A stretch of DNA of 36,183 bases from an uncultured Lachnospiraceae bacterium (lineage in GTDB: Bacteria > Bacillota > Clostridia > Lachnospirales > Lachnospiraceae). Position numbers and translations under genes: made by a program. Location of the stretch: assembly GCA_947178125.1 (NCBI GenBank), contig CAMWXB010000042.1, positions 1 to 36,183 of the forward strand, written 5' to 3'. Within the stretch, counting starts at the first letter, position 1, and every line of letters starts with the position of its first letter. Shown here piece after piece: positions 4,698 through 25,876 of this stretch. The notes under the pieces are model-generated. The model was not told the DNA's origin. It searched no databases and worked only from the letters and a program-made list of their open reading frames with translations.

Positions 4698-5477
4698 TTA
4701 TGCAGTGGTTCGTAACGCATCTTTCATGGACTTAACATATTCTCCAATATATTCCGGTGCATCTTTTCCGTATTTCTCTAACAGTTTGATGATTGCAGAA
4801 CCGACGATGGCGCCGTCGGAAATCTTCGCCATTTTCTGTGCCTGTTCGGGTGTGGATATGCCAAAACCGATGGCACAGGGGATATCGGTATTCTGGCGGA
4901 CGACCTCGACAATGGATGCGAGGTCTGTTTTGATTTCGTTTCTCATGCCGGTAACGCCAAGGGAAGAAACGATGTACAGAAATCCTTCCGCTTCTTTGGC
5001 AATCATGGCAATGCGGTTTTCTGATGTAGGCGCGATGAGCGAGATTAAATCTACATTGTACGCATGGCAGGCTGACAGAAATTCTTCTTTTTCCTCAAAA
5101 GGCAGGTCGGGCAGTATCACGCCGTTGATGCCGATATCGCGACAGGTGGACAGGAACCGTTCGGTGCCGTAAGAAAAAATGACATTGGCATAAGTCATAA
5201 AGACAAAAGGCGTTGTAACATCCTGCCGGAGTTCTTTGACAAGGGAAAAAATCTTATCCGTTGTAACGCCGCCATTCAGGGCGCGGAGATTTGCTCCCTG
5301 AATGACAGGGCCTTCCGCTGTCGGGTCAGAAAAGGGTATGCCGAGTTCGATAAGGTCGGCGCCGTTCTCCACTGCTGCGCGGACGGCGGCTGCGGTCGTT
5401 TCCAGGTCGGGGTCGCCGCAGGTGATAAAGGCGATAAAAGCCTTTCCGTTCTCGAAAGCTGATCTTATATTATTCAT
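4698..5477 (-). CDS. trpA: Tryptophan synthase alpha subunit
   Basis: Cleaves indole-3-glycerol phosphate to indole and glyceraldehyde 3-phosphate and passes indole to TrpB through the alpha2-beta2 tunnel. The catalytic pair is visible in [14 protein letters not shown] (Glu near 43, Asp near 54). The phosphate-binding GFGIST and GSAI segments lie in the C-terminal half. The start at 5477 follows GGGGAGGAT by 4 bases and yields 259 residues, the usual size; a longer frame to 5579 reads into trpB and is rejected. The gene overlaps the end of trpB by 8 bp, which suggests translational coupling of the two subunits. It is the last gene of the operon. Confidence 0.96.
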
Positions 5478-19860: not shown

Positions 19861-21954
19861 TCAGTTCTCATCCTTAAACATCTCAATGATCCGTTCCATA
19901 CGTTTCAGGTCTTCTTCATTGTGTTCTACCAGCTGGGCATTGCCCTGTACGGCGTCGGCAACTTCCAGCGTTTTCTGCGCAATTCCGGTTATACTGTCTG
20001 CTGATTCGCCTACGGTCGTATTGATGCCGTCCACGGAATCCGCTATGGATACGATGGCATCCAACAGGGATTCGATTTCCTGGCTGATAATCGTCATATC
20101 GCTTTCAAATTCAGCGGCATCCTGTGTATACTGATCTGCTACCTGCATAAATTCGTCATAATCTTTTAGAACGGTATGTTCCAGGAAGCCGGTGCTCTGA
20201 TTCAGGCAGTCGGCAAGATTGTGTACCGCAATAATGACATCGTCGATAATGCCTTTGATATCGCCTGCGGTGGAAGAGGTCTGGGAAGCCAGTTTGCCGA
20301 TTTCATCGGCAACGACTGCAAATCCGCGGCCGGCCTCTCCTGCTCTTGCGGCTTCGATAGAAGCATTGAGAGCCAGAAGATTTGTCTGACTGGAAATGTC
20401 CAGAATGGCCTGTGTCAGCTGGTTGATCTTCTCGACTGCTTTTGACTGTTCCATTGCTTCCGTGGCTTTCCGGCTGACCTCCTCATACATGGTGGTCGTT
20501 TTACTGCTTGCCGAATCGGTAGTAGATTTCAGGTTATCGGCACGGTTTCTGCTTTCGATGGAAGTGGTAAGACCTTCCTCGGAGCGTTCCTTGATGACTT
20601 TTGAACGTTCTTTGATATTGCCGAGCATTTGGTTGACGTTTTCCATCGTTGCGGCGGTCTGTTCCATAGCCGCTGCAAGTTCCTGTGTCGTATCCGAGTT
20701 TTCAAAACTCATCGTATTCACTTGTTCTGTCATTTCGGAAAGCTGGTTCATCGTATTCTGCAGATCGCTGTAAGTCTGCCGGATGTCTGCTATCATCGTC
20801 CGCAGATTTGCGCGCATATTATGTAGTGACTGGGCCATAACGCCGGTTTCATCCGCTCTTTTGAAGAGTTTGGCATTAGCCGGATCATGTGCGAAGTTAA
20901 ACTCTGCGGTTCTTTTTACGGCATCGGTAATCTGCGTGATCGGTCTGGCGATGCCGAGTGAGAGGATGATACCGATAATAGCAGACAGAACGACTGCTAC
21001 CAGAGCGCCGAGCAGAATAGCGATCGTATTGTTATTGGCCTGTGCCGTAAATTCTTTTTCCGGAACGGTCATGACATAGCGCATTCCGTTCGCTAATATT
21101 GTATAGAACATATCTTTGCGCTGTCCATTATAGGAATAAGTAACAAAGGTGTTTTCCTGTGAGTCGTCCGTGATGGCGGCGGCCGCATTGGCAAGACCGC
21201 TATCCGCATCTGCAAGAGAGGTTCCGACATCGAGCTCTTTATGGTACATGACCTTGCCGTCTGCGTTTGCCAGATAAGCGTAACCGGCATCAAAGATATT
21301 GGACTGGTCTATGATATCGGTAAAGGTGCTGAATTCAATGTCCATTCCGATAATACCGATGGATTCCTCGTTGATATAAATCGGAATGACATAGGATATC
21401 ATGTAAACATTGATGTTGGAATTTAAATAAGGTTCCATCCAGGTCGGCTTTTTGTTATTGACCGGAATATAATACCAGCCGACATGTTCAAGGTCATCCG
21501 GTTCATACATGGAGAAATCGGTCGGGGTTATGCTGGTAAATTCGCCGTCGCTGCTGTCCCTCGTATAGAAAAGACCGCTGGTCGGGTCCGTAAATTCCGG
21601 GTTAAAGCGGATATACGCCGTAAGCGTACCGCTGGTATTCTGTGCGATTTCAAGAAGAATATCGGCTATTTCTTCCGTGTAGCTCTCTACATAAGCCGGA
21701 TTTGTCTTAAATTCTTCTACATCGTCCAGTCTTTCTAAAGCAACGCTGTACAGATTTTCAACGGACAGCTCCACATTGCCCATCATACGGTCCAATACGG
21801 CACTCGCGTTCTGGGTGCAGAGCAGCATATATTCTCTTGACGTTTCATCGGAAACGGTCTTAGAAGTGAGAATGCTCAATCCGCCGCACACAATAGCCGA
21901 CAGAAGCGCACATAAAATGACGGAAGCAATGATTTTTACTTTGATCGTTTTCAT
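19861..21954 (-). CDS. Methyl-accepting chemotaxis protein with extracellular Cache domain
   Basis: A transmembrane chemoreceptor controlling CheA. In order: membrane segment (about 8-30), a periplasm-side sensor of about 260 residues with the double-Cache pattern ([18 protein letters not shown]...[15 protein letters not shown]), a second membrane segment (about 305-330), a HAMP domain starting [11 protein letters not shown], and a long coiled-coil signalling domain with the conserved tip [27 protein letters not shown] split over about 545-575. The ATG at 21954 has GGAGG 8 bases before it; the GTG at 21969 overlaps that site. The ligand is unknown; Cache domains commonly bind amino acids or carboxylates. 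It diverges from the proteolytic flagellin gene. Confidence 0.93.
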
Positions 21955-21973
21955 AGAAAATACCTCCACATTA

Positions 21974-22106: not shown

Positions 22107-22134
22107 TAATTTTAATGGCAGTGTATGCCGATAT
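22107..22134 (+). promoter_or_regulatory. Sigma-D (FliA-type) flagellar promoter
   Basis: The -10 GCCGATAT (22127-22134) is an exact match to the flagellar sigma consensus, with TAAT (22107-22110) as a -35 at 16 bp. Transcription would start near 22141 and give a leader of about 54 nt to the flagellin start. A run of nine G (22179-22187) lies in this leader, 7 bases before the ATG. Confidence 0.8.
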
Positions 22135-22194
22135 ACTTTAAAATAACACTGTCAATTTTTTACCTCGGATTTTTCTCTGGGGGGGGGCAAAGGA

Positions 22195-24060
22195 ATGCTT
22201 TCAGTTCAAACAAACATAGCGGCATGGAATGCCGAACGACAGCTTGGAATTACAACAAAGAAAACAGCAAAATCGACGGAAAGACTTTCGTCTGGTTATA
22301 AAATTAACCGGGCTGCAGATGATGCGGCCGGGTTATCTATTTCTGAAAAAATGCGCAGACAGGTCAGAGGTCTGACGCAGGCGACGCTCAATGCACAGGA
22401 CGGTATTTCTATGGTGCAGACGGCGGAAGGAGCCATGAACGAGATTCATGATATGCTCCACCGAATGAATGAATTGTCAGTCAAAGCGGCGACCGGAACC
22501 TTAACGGATTCCGACCGGATGATGGTGGATGCGGAAGTTCAGCAGTTGAAGACGGAGATTGACGGGATAACGGACCGGACGACTTTTAATGAAATCGATC
22601 TTTTTCCGGATAGCGGACATTCACCGTATTACGCATCCCAAATGGAATCGAAAAATTATGAATTGACCTATGATCTGACGAACGGTTCTATAGCCGTAAA
22701 CAGCATGGATGGCATGAACGGTGCGGCAGGCGTATCCCGCGCTGTACAGCCTGTTTCCAGCGGAAGCGTTCTGGCGGATACAATTGCAAATGAGTTGATT
22801 CCGAAAGCGGCAAAACAGATCATGGATGCTTTTCCGGCATTGAATACTGCGGTCGGTACGGATACGATCAAACTTGGATTGAGTGTTTCTTATATAGATG
22901 GGCCGAACCGTACGCTGGCATATGCTTCTTTCCGATTCTATAATAACGGAAAACCTTTCGGAATGGCGATTAAAGTGGATGCGGCGGATTTTAATGCGGC
23001 GGATGCTGAGGGAACAGGAAGCCGTGCGGAGGCGCTGCGCTCCACGGTAGCCCATGAGTTGATGCACTCCGTCATGCAGTATACGCTGACAGACGGTATG
23101 AGCGGCAGGAAAGGCAGTAAATTTCCGACCTGGTTCGCGGAAGGGACGGCACAGCTTGCCGGAGGCGGTTTTGCGACCGGCTGGAATGATGCGTTGACAT
23201 TTTATGCGGATAAGCTGACAAGTGAAAATGACACGAGTCAGGATGCGAATTTTAAGAAATACATACAGTATTATACGGTAGCGGGAAGGCCGTACGGACA
23301 TGGATATCTGGCTGCGGCTTATGCCGGTTATCTCTCGAATATAAAGAACGGCGGTTCGACCGCTGTCACTGGCCAGAATATCGCGGCCGGCATGAATAAG
23401 ATATTTGAAGACCTGCTGAACGGAAAGCGCCTGGATGCTGCTTTGAAGGACAATTCGGGATATTCGGAACAGCAGTTGAAGGATTTGTTCCAGAATGGCG
23501 ATGCCGACCTCGTGGAATTTGTAAGAAAACTGTCATACGAGTCGAAAGGCGGTGCGGGTTCCGTTATCACAAATGCGTTGAATGTCGGCGGTTCTTCCTT
23601 AATTGATACAAACGGCAGTGACAGTAGATTCTATGTTGACAGTGTCTTCGTCGATCTGAGCGGCCCGGTGGAAATCGGTTTACAGGTCGGCGCGGAGGCG
23701 GGACAGCATATAGAGGTGAACCTTTTCCAGATGAATACGATGGCGCTCGGACTGGAAGAGACGAACGTAAGGACGACAGAAGACGCCGATAATGCGATCA
23801 ATGCGGTCAAAGCGGCGATTACCGCAGTCAGCAGTGCAAGGAGTTATTACGGTGCGATACAGAACCGTCTGGAACATACGATCAACAATCTGGAGAACGT
23901 TACGGAAAATACGACGGCGGCGGAATCCCGAATCAGGGATGCAGATATCGCGGAAGAGATGGTTTGGTTTTCCAATAACCAGATTTTGATGCAGGCCGGA
24001 ACTTCCATGCTGGCGCAGGCGAACCAGCAGAGTCAGATGATACTCAGCCTGTTAGGCTGA
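22195..24060 (+). CDS. Proteolytic flagellin (flagellinolysin)
   Basis: A flagellin whose surface-exposed central region is a zinc metalloprotease. Residues about 1-140 are the flagellin N-terminal D0/D1 domain (SSGYKINRAADDAAGLSISE), and about 520-621 the C-terminal D1/D0 (RIRDADIAEEMV to ILSLLG). The insert has HELMH (287-291) and, 25 residues later, WFAEGTAQ with Glu316; this HExxH-plus-Glu arrangement is that of gluzincins and matches the collagenase-like peptidase of known flagellinolysins (first described from Clostridium haemolyticum). All zinc and catalytic residues are intact, so an active protease displayed thousands of times along the filament is likely. AAAGGA abuts the start and a nine-G tract precedes it. 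A sigma-D promoter lies upstream and a zinc-ribbon gene follows after 28 bp. Confidence 0.93.
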   Translation: MLSVQTNIAAWNAERQLGITTKKTAKSTERLSSGYKINRAADDAAGLSISEKMRRQVRGLTQATLNAQDGISMVQTAEGAMNEIHDMLHRMNELSVKAATGTLTDSDRMMVDAEVQQLKTEIDGITDRTTFNEIDLFPDSGHSPYYASQMESKNYELTYDLTNGSIAVNSMDGMNGAAGVSRAVQPVSSGSVLADTIANELIPKAAKQIMDAFPALNTAVGTDTIKLGLSVSYIDGPNRTLAYASFRFYNNGKPFGMAIKVDAADFNAADAEGTGSRAEALRSTVAHELMHSVMQYTLTDGMSGRKGSKFPTWFAEGTAQLAGGGFATGWNDALTFYADKLTSENDTSQDANFKKYIQYYTVAGRPYGHGYLAAAYAGYLSNIKNGGSTAVTGQNIAAGMNKIFEDLLNGKRLDAALKDNSGYSEQQLKDLFQNGDADLVEFVRKLSYESKGGAGSVITNALNVGGSSLIDTNGSDSRFYVDSVFVDLSGPVEIGLQVGAEAGQHIEVNLFQMNTMALGLEETNVRTTEDADNAINAVKAAITAVSSARSYYGAIQNRLEHTINNLENVTENTTAAESRIRDADIAEEMVWFSNNQILMQAGTSMLAQANQQSQMILSLLG

Positions 24061-24088: not shown

Positions 24089-24463
24089 ATGGGCGAGATA
24101 AGGAAGATTACCTGTAAATCATGCGGCAGAGACTGGCAGGTGCAGACGGGATGTGGGCTGCGGCACGGCAAGTTGGAGAATGTTGTTTCCGTTTTCCCGA
24201 AGGTAATGCAGAAGGGAATCTATAAGAGCATAGAGGATATGGAATTTCCAATCTATGATTTTGCCTATCGGCCGGCGCATTGTGAATATTGCTGCAAGAT
24301 TGTGAGCGTTCCGGTCTTTACGCCGATGGGAAAATCGAGTTTTATCGGCGGGTGTCCTGTGTGCGGACATGATACGGAGTTGATTCAGAATGCGGAGGAA
24401 ACCTTATGTCCCGTATGTGGACAGAAAGCGCTCCGGGAAGAAGAGACAGGGCTCTGGGACTGA
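24089..24463 (+). CDS. Small zinc-ribbon protein of unknown function
   Basis: The 124-residue product has four C-x-x-C pairs (CKSC near 9, CEYC near 67, CPVC near 90 and CPVC near 108), enough for two zinc ribbons. No enzyme motif is seen between them. AAAGGGG precedes the ATG. The gene starts 28 bp after the flagellin stop with no terminator between, so it should be on the same sigma-D transcript. A role in export or assembly of the flagellin is conceivable but is only inference from position; it could equally be an independent housekeeping protein. Confidence 0.75.
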   Translation: MGEIRKITCKSCGRDWQVQTGCGLRHGKLENVVSVFPKVMQKGIYKSIEDMEFPIYDFAYRPAHCEYCCKIVSVPVFTPMGKSSFIGGCPVCGHDTELIQNAEETLCPVCGQKALREEETGLWD

Positions 24464-24628: not shown

Positions 24629-25876
24629 ATGAGCAGCGAAATCAGAGACATTAACTTAGCCGAGTCAGGCGAAAGAAAGATTGAGTGGGTCAAAAGGAAC
24701 TGCGACCTGCTTCGTACTCTGGAGAAAGAGTTTTCCGACTCTAAACCGTTTGCAGGGAAAAAGGTAGCTTTGTCCGTGCATCTGGAAGCGAAAACAGCTT
24801 ATCTGTGCCTCGTATTAAAAGCGGGCGGAGCAGAAATGTATGTAACGGGTTCCAATCCGTTGTCCACGCAGGATGATGTGGCAGCAGCGCTGGTGAAAGC
24901 AGGACTGGAAGTACACGCATGGTATGATGCGACGCAGGAAGAGTATGAGAAACACATCCGCCATGTATTGGAGGCGGGGCCGAATATCATCATCGATGAC
25001 GGTGGAGATTTGGTCAATATGGTGCATAAGGATATGCCGGAGTTGATTCCGAATATCATCGGCGGCTGCGAAGAGACGACAACCGGTATCATCCGTCTGG
25101 AAGCGATGAACAAGGCCGGGGAATTAAAATTCCCGATGGTGCGCGTGAACAATGCTGCATGCAAGCATTTCTTCGATAACAGATATGGTACGGGCCAGTC
25201 TGTGTGGGATGGTATCAACAGAACGACGAACCTGATCGTAGCGGGCAAGATCGTTGTCGTAGCAGGTTACGGCTGGTGCGGTAAGGGAACGGCATTGAGA
25301 GCGAAAGGACTTGGCGCAAGGGTCATCGTTACCGAAATCGACCCGATTAAAGCGATCGAAGCGGTCATGGATGGATTCGATGTTATGCCGATGAAGGAAG
25401 CGGCGAAGGTCGGCGATTTCTTTGTTACCGTAACAGGTTGTGACGGCGTTATCGATAAAGAAGATTTTGCAGTTATGAAGGAAGGCGCGATTCTGTGTAA
25501 TGCAGGACACTTCGACTGTGAGATCGATATGGCATGGCTGAAAGCAAATGCAGTGGAAAGCAGAGAGCAGAGAAAGAATATTATGGGATATAAGCTTCCG
25601 ACCGGACAGTGGATTTTCGTTCTTGCGGAAGGAAGACTCGTTAATCTGGCGGCCGGAGACGGACATCCGGCGGAAATCATGGATATGAGTTTTGCAATTC
25701 AGGCGCTGTCCGCAAAATATCTGGTGGAACATGGAAGCGAACTGAACGAAAAGCTGATCGATGTGCCGGAGGAAGTAGACAAGGACGTTGCAAAACGGAA
25801 ACTTGCATTCCTCGGAAAAGAAATCGATGTGCTGACGCCGGAGCAGGAAAGATATTTGAACAGTTATTCTTTGTAA
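24629..25876 (+). CDS. ahcY: S-adenosylhomocysteine hydrolase (short, archaeal/Thermotoga-like form)
   Basis: Hydrolyses S-adenosylhomocysteine (or S-inosylhomocysteine) to homocysteine and the nucleoside with bound NAD. Visible are SNPLSTQDDVAAAL, the catalytic stretch NAACKHFFDNRYGTGQS, and the NAD-binding GYGWCGKGTALRAKGLGARV. At 415 residues it lacks the insert of the longer enzymes, and it ends ERYLNSYSL instead of the C-terminal PDHYRY tail of classical SAH hydrolases. AAGGAGG precedes the ATG. With the SAH deaminase at 18442 it may act on the deaminated product, as shown for the methanogen enzyme pair. A terminator follows. Confidence 0.93.
   Translation: MSSEIRDINLAESGERKIEWVKRNCDLLRTLEKEFSDSKPFAGKKVALSVHLEAKTAYLCLVLKAGGAEMYVTGSNPLSTQDDVAAALVKAGLEVHAWYDATQEEYEKHIRHVLEAGPNIIIDDGGDLVNMVHKDMPELIPNIIGGCEETTTGIIRLEAMNKAGELKFPMVRVNNAACKHFFDNRYGTGQSVWDGINRTTNLIVAGKIVVVAGYGWCGKGTALRAKGLGARVIVTEIDPIKAIEAVMDGFDVMPMKEAAKVGDFFVTVTGCDGVIDKEDFAVMKEGAILCNAGHFDCEIDMAWLKANAVESREQRKNIMGYKLPTGQWIFVLAEGRLVNLAAGDGHPAEIMDMSFAIQALSAKYLVEHGSELNEKLIDVPEEVDKDVAKRKLAFLGKEIDVLTPEQERYLNSYSL

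Follow-up and report, generated by a model that had tools for sequence, protein, structure and literature searches.

The stretch of DNA analysed here, referred to as the window, comprises 36,183 nucleotides (nt) and corresponds to positions 1-36183 of contig C42 in the 4.14 Mb genome of an uncultured Lachnospiraceae bacterium (the host genome, G000). At positions 22195..24060 of the forward strand, to which the small zinc-ribbon gene behind it and the leader features described below also belong, it encodes a flagellinolysin, that is, a flagellin with a metallopeptidase insert, of 621 amino acids. The N-terminal helical region matches Pfam Flagellin_N over residues 4-139 (22204..22611; model positions 1-136 of 139; 139 bits), and the C-terminal helical region matches Flagellin_C over residues 536-620 (23800..24054; model positions 2-86 of 86; 99 bits). 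Because both models are matched over nearly their full length, both polymerising ends are complete. Between them, in the flagellin hypervariable region, alignment and AlphaFold2 delimit a metallopeptidase core of residues 186-482 (22750..23640). This core contains the zinc-binding and general-base motif HELMH at residues 287-291 (23053..23067) and, within a WFAEG segment that starts at residue 313, the candidate third zinc ligand Glu316 (23140..23142), 29 residues past His287. In the predicted model, HELMH and Glu316 lie on successive helices (residues 278-297 and 312-323) within its confident part, the ten-residue means of confidence being 80-98 over residues 191-470, 78 over 471-480 and 34 over 181-190.

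An earlier note, made from the sequence alone, had proposed a flagellin with an intact zinc-protease motif between two complete polymerising ends, and had named it a flagellinolysin. Both proposals are borne out, the first by the residues given above and the second by the curated flagellinolysin model NF033876, against which the protein scores 212.2 bits at a cut-off of 205. According to the main texts of the papers concerned, flagellinolysins were described in 2017 from 74 species, activity being shown for recombinant protein and for Clostridium haemolyticum filaments (PMC5595980), and a second one was characterised in 2020 (PMC7643111). Like FliA(H)/FlaMP of C. haemolyticum as presented there (PMC5595980), the window protein combines flagellin ends with a gluzincin insert bearing HExxH and a downstream Glu, and the His-to-Glu spacing is 29 in both proteins (His233/Glu262 and His287/Glu316, respectively). 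Like HgrFlaMP of Hylemonella gracilis, which is described as zinc- and calcium-dependent, it carries the peptidase insert in the hypervariable region and is located away from flagellar genes (PMC7643111). Judged by its sequence, the window protein is a gluzincin-type peptidase inside a complete flagellin, and a divergent member of the known flagellinolysin family; flagellinolysin is thus already known in kind, and the window copy is a new divergent one.

The suggestion of MEROPS family M9 (collagenase), also made in the earlier note, is not supported. The M9 label is replaced because the flagellinolysin family has a MEROPS number of its own, M101, as stated in the text of PMC7643111. Pfam Peptidase_M9 gave no match at E up to 1 with either the window protein or its core; it matched four of 29 cores from relatives, with a best E of 0.0076. 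The match list consulted for a shared M9 fold was filled by flagellin cores, the peptidase domain not having been queried on its own.

Relatives were gathered by scanning one genome per species, and the best 80 of 235 were kept as loci. HExxH and the downstream Glu are retained in 78 of these 80, a degree of conservation which argues that the motif is more than chance; since the EG[TM]A end had been written into the search pattern, only HExxH counts as independent evidence. The two loci without the motif are L124, which reads HGLMH, and L139, whose contig begins past it. Asp262 (22978..22980), a candidate calcium-binding residue, and Asp265 show no variation across an alignment of 54 rows (the window and 53 relatives), from which rows lacking HExxH had been filtered beforehand. 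In sequence, their spacing to HExxH differs from that of Asp206/His233 of C. haemolyticum. The same peptidase was also seen in three non-flagellin proteins whose N-termini look signal-like by eye (L071, with a type I dockerin, L073 and L205). These are candidate relatives of the donor of the flagellin insert, a donor called undetermined in the text of the 2017 paper (PMC5595980).

The window flagellin had also been taken to be an extra, specialised one standing apart from other flagellin and flagellar structural genes, and the genome agrees. There is no further Flagellin_N place on the contig, and no flagellar structural gene was found among the ten window proteins scanned, a subset of its open reading frames (ORFs). 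A profile search of the host genome found seven other Flagellin_N places, one of them weak, and the window flagellin is therefore an extra flagellin; the genome also encodes one FlhA, a component of the flagellar export gate. Conversely, the description of the filament as a protease polymer was overstated, as the protease flagellin of C. haemolyticum is the second most abundant filament protein and is put, in the text of PMC5595980, at up to 10% of the filament. One further flagellin of the host genome (C45:25914-27635, locus L051) has no single-frame read-through, though the ORF listing gives a longer open frame.

The neighbouring genes, whose role had been called poorly understood in the earlier note, are the most informative part of the locus. 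The partner gene, 28 nt downstream of the flagellinolysin (24089..24463), encodes a double zinc-ribbon protein of 124 amino acids with four CxxC pairs and a C-terminal G-x-W-D. Its AlphaFold2 model has a mean predicted local distance difference test score of 94.6, and no signal peptide is apparent by eye. No Pfam or NCBIfam model reaches its cut-off with any of nine partner proteins. CpXC (PF14353) was rejected as the family, at 13.4 bits against a cut-off of 25.4; it gives a weak local match to the N-terminal part, while the partner has its four CxxC pairs and a conserved C-terminal WD.

A homologue of the partner adjoins the flagellinolysin in 65 of the 80 loci, always on the same strand and within 221 nt, lying downstream in 61 and upstream in four, with L128 retaining only a remnant fused to what remains of its flagellinolysin. 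The linkage of partner and flagellinolysin is thus directly observed; when 833 gene calls were clustered, the runner-up among neighbour families was present at 15 loci. The loci with no partner number 15: a clade of 13, L101, and L120, where the contig stops within the gene. When partner position (upstream, downstream or none) was mapped on a quick tree of 75 flagellinolysins, four changes were required, and absence falls on one clade plus L101. The partner is upstream in deep lineages (L149 there has it downstream) and downstream in derived ones, the deepest part of the tree being unsure where two long branches meet. In whole-genome searches, the L101 genome gave one weaker partner match (E 4e-19), outside the 13-kb locus, and four control genomes gave one partner each. 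In the L128 remnant, a single ORF (4923-5324) fuses a central part of a flagellinolysin with the end of a partner, probably the remains of a deletion.

Among 150 evenly sampled genomes of the family, six (G000, G031, G054, G064, G097 and G107) match the partner profile strongly (E up to 1e-25). Among the matches listed, the flagellinolysin model hits the peptidase region of a flagellin in these same six. Weak partner matches (E 1e-14 to 5e-6) occur in five further family genomes, and around four of these (G047, G039, G122 and G144) no flagellin was seen nearby by eye. In a class sample of 391 genomes, the partner immediately precedes the flagellin gene in G777 and G789, which belong to another family. 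Directly downstream in G651 and G739 of that sample, and in G452 of a phylum sample of 398 genomes, lies a shorter zinc-ribbon ORF (104-106 amino acids); the partner profile reaches these shorter ORFs weakly (E 9e-5 to 5e-4), with an hhalign probability of 89.6 for that of G452. No partner was found in the stretches of 8 to 14 kb examined around the flagellinolysins of G178, G421, G467, G488, G510, G343 and G593. The phylum sample contains partner-like proteins in eight genomes besides the host; around seven of these no flagellinolysin was found in some 3 kb, and in the eighth, G467, the two lie on different contigs. The zinc-ribbon family is therefore wider than a flagellinolysin role, and it is its closest branch that goes with flagellin-borne proteases. 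The partner was missing beside the three non-flagellin protease relatives (in 3.7, 10 and 13 kb of DNA), and no linkage to ordinary flagellins was seen. A variant of the pair is found in G789 (L206, 3677-5320), where a 393-residue flagellin with a partial peptidase insert and no HExxH still has the zinc-ribbon partner adjoining.

Upstream of the flagellinolysin, positions 22107..22134 resemble a promoter of the sigma-28 (sigma-D) type, with TAAT (22107-22110) and GCCGATAT (22127-22134) separated by 16 nt; the label follows the sigma-28-type consensus. The pattern GCCGATA[ATC] occurs near the start of 29 of 76 flagellinolysins, four of the 80 loci having been dropped for a short leader, compared with 12 of the 614 further genes in these loci (Fisher p 2e-21). 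The -35 elements are mostly CTAA-like at 16 nt, a spacer picked for best fit. GCCGATA was absent from those leaders of other flagellin genes in the host genome that were examined. In the leader of L067/L119 (G107), a run of ten C within an inverted repeat, followed by Ts, was seen by eye 115 nt before the ATG. It sits between a GCCGATAT site and the flagellinolysin start and might be an attenuator.

In the window, a run of nine G (22179..22187) lies between the promoter-like sequence and the start, 7 nt before the ATG; it is the only run of seven or more G in the window and the probable Shine-Dalgarno sequence. Its pairing energy with the 16S tail is -10.9 kcal/mol, compared with -5.6 for the AAAGGA adjoining the ATG, and three close relatives without the run (L085, L095 and L096) have a canonical GGAGGG in its place at a similar spacing. 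Of 75 flagellinolysin gene calls, 12 have 7-10 consecutive G at the ribosome-binding site, versus one of 706 others, among which the short or split flagellinolysins of five loci were counted; the single call is itself a flagellinolysin fragment (L103). The associated p of 3e-12 is too optimistic, because the sequences are related by descent. Over the last 25 nt of 82 leaders (one record occurs twice), the longest G run is 1-5 in 68, 6 in none and 7-10 in 14, the window included.

Run lengths were compared between species, at one genome per species. On the tree, the G-run label needs at least eight changes, seven of them forced by supported branches, and sister species differ, with G10 in L089, an interrupted run in L081 and G7 in L084. 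Sporofaciens musculi (L105) has the partner and lacks a poly-G run. Two loci have the run inside the gene: L104 has G9 with the frame open, and in L135 a G10 coincides with a frame change shortly ahead of the active-site codons. The homopolymeric tract sits where expression could be altered, a placement expected of contingency loci, and on sequence grounds the G-run pattern fits hypermutable contingency tracts. Elsewhere in the host genome, several G9 runs lie at frame changes of genes judged by eye to be membrane- or surface-like (L055, L060, L061 and L063). One 30-kb stretch, contig C12 4840-34811 (L055, L056), has five G9 and one G8 on one strand, several at gene ends or frame changes, and looks like a cluster of slippage-prone genes.

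These observations can be assembled into a mechanism in which the flagellinolysin and the small cytosolic double zinc-ribbon protein would form a two-gene unit, transcribed from the sigma-28-type promoter together with the late flagellar genes. The protease flagellin would be exported unfolded through the flagellar export gate and built in as a minority subunit among ordinary flagellins, placing protease on the filament surface; expression, incorporation and proteolysis are here what the sequence leads us to expect. The zinc-ribbon protein would be a dedicated partner of the flagellin-borne protease. Its lack of an evident signal peptide, its association with the flagellin-borne protease and its absence beside the non-flagellin relatives make a cytosolic role before export the simplest reading. 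The function that we prefer, while rating it at somewhat less than an even chance, is that of a guard, which would bind the peptidase insert before export and keep it inactive and export-competent. Translation of the protease flagellin may in turn be tuned or switched by replication slippage in the G run, such that only part of the population displays the enzyme. This we infer from the repeated origin of G runs at the site and the position of the G10 of L135 at a frame change, and we consider it evenly balanced. The flagellinolysin, the two-gene unit and the regulatory reading, taken jointly and apart from the guard alone, are probably correct.

Several observations weigh against this picture. 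The margin by which the window protein passes NF033876 is small, and it is the sole passer among the 150 family genomes. Anti-Shine-Dalgarno pairing energy is flat from eight G upward, so that a change in tract length would not simply stop initiation. Because the partner profile was built from copies adjoining flagellinolysins, with rows from five of the six strong-match genomes, the strength of those matches is in part a product of its construction; no such bias enters the absence of strong matches from the remaining 144. Among the six, G031 has an internal stop in its flagellinolysin, and the one congener of the host that was sampled, G060, has neither flagellinolysin nor partner at the thresholds used. 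Zinc-ribbon relatives adjoin unrelated genes in other families. Finally, the partner is found nowhere in the genomes of the 13-member clade and, in families f39, f104 and f166, is missing from the stretches examined around the flagellinolysins, which shows that it is not indispensable.

These absences, in 13 related genomes and three further families, are what would be expected if the locus held an ordinary flagellinolysin only, the zinc-ribbon gene beside it being neutral and the G run no more than a strong Shine-Dalgarno sequence, likewise neutral. In keeping with this, the G runs pair well with the 16S tail, and the neighbours named in the main texts on C. haemolyticum and H. gracilis are other genes, with no zinc ribbon among them. 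However, neighbour order is otherwise poorly conserved (next family, 15/80), while the pair persists in both gene orders and co-occurs in six of six cases across 150 genomes. Moreover, the G runs recur on at least seven to eight branches and are absent from 705 other gene calls. A wholly neutral arrangement therefore seems rather doubtful.

Instead of guarding the protease, the zinc-ribbon protein could have a regulatory role, for instance by binding RNA or DNA at the flagellinolysin leader. It bears a local, sub-threshold likeness to zinc ribbons of RNA polymerase and translation proteins, and regulators are commonly found beside their targets. Yet no match reaches a curated cut-off, and the partner also accompanies flagellinolysins whose leaders differ and lack a G run; we think this role unlikely. 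A metallochaperone that loads zinc into the peptidase is suggested by a distant version of the protein (L175 in G452), which passes the Pfam cut-off for HypA, itself a metallochaperone, at 30.3 versus 28.9 bits. That match, however, spans residues 45-100 and only the second half of the model. Flagellins are generally exported unfolded, so that the metal would need to be loaded outside the cell, and the partner is missing beside the non-flagellin protease relatives in the DNA examined; such a role is quite improbable. A reading of the insert as an inactive surface or antigenic domain is highly improbable: although L124 reads HGLMH and G789 has a partial insert, 78 of 80 loci preserve HExxH with its downstream Glu, and the copy in the window is complete.

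The conserved zinc-ribbon partner and the recurrent poly-G ribosome-binding site are the parts that could be new. Unlike C. haemolyticum FlaMP, the window member is a divergent protein encoded away from flagellar gene clusters, and it comes with a zinc-ribbon partner gene and a G9 site. For HgrFlaMP, the neighbours named are a NUDIX hydrolase, a MarR regulator "and others", with no zinc ribbon in the main text (PMC7643111), and the terms "zinc ribbon", "zinc finger" and "phase variation" do not appear in the main texts of PMC5595980 and PMC7643111. Nor is a partner gene or a poly-G site of flagellinolysins reported in the titles and abstract openings of the open-access literature searched. The closest parallel to the tract is the pilus poly-G switch of Bifidobacterium breve, likewise a gut commensal, whose appendage genes are reported to be switched by slippage (PMC9187656). 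Unlike in that system, most tracts here are the Shine-Dalgarno sequence itself, and they are known from sequence rather than from slippage in a population.

Flagellinolysins raise two questions, namely how a cell can produce a protease within a flagellin unharmed, and to what end; the tightly linked partner gives a direct genetic handle on the first. A hypermutable ribosome-binding site, if confirmed, would mean that protease flagella are worn by only part of a gut population; the changing selection behind such partial display could come, for example, from host immunity or competitors. A broader proposition is that the flagellin-borne proteases of Lachnospiraceae form a phase-variable two-gene system, in which the zinc-ribbon protein neutralises or escorts the protease and the slippage-prone poly-G site picks the protease-wearing cells. 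This proposition, which includes a partner fold with no solved match in a limited comparison, is on balance unlikely to hold in full. If true, it would provide, within the literature searched, the first guard of a flagellin-borne enzyme and the first case of an enzymatic filament controlled through a hypermutable Shine-Dalgarno sequence.

The remaining neighbours in the window include a chemotaxis receptor on the opposite strand (19861-21969) and an S-adenosylhomocysteine hydrolase (24629-25876); the other proteins scanned comprise ABC transporters and a CarD-like protein. Outside the window's family, G178 (L172/L199) has tandem flagellins, two of which bear HExxH. Finally, L070 and L072 encode very large protease flagellins, of 961 and 988 amino acids, with extra sequence past the peptidase.
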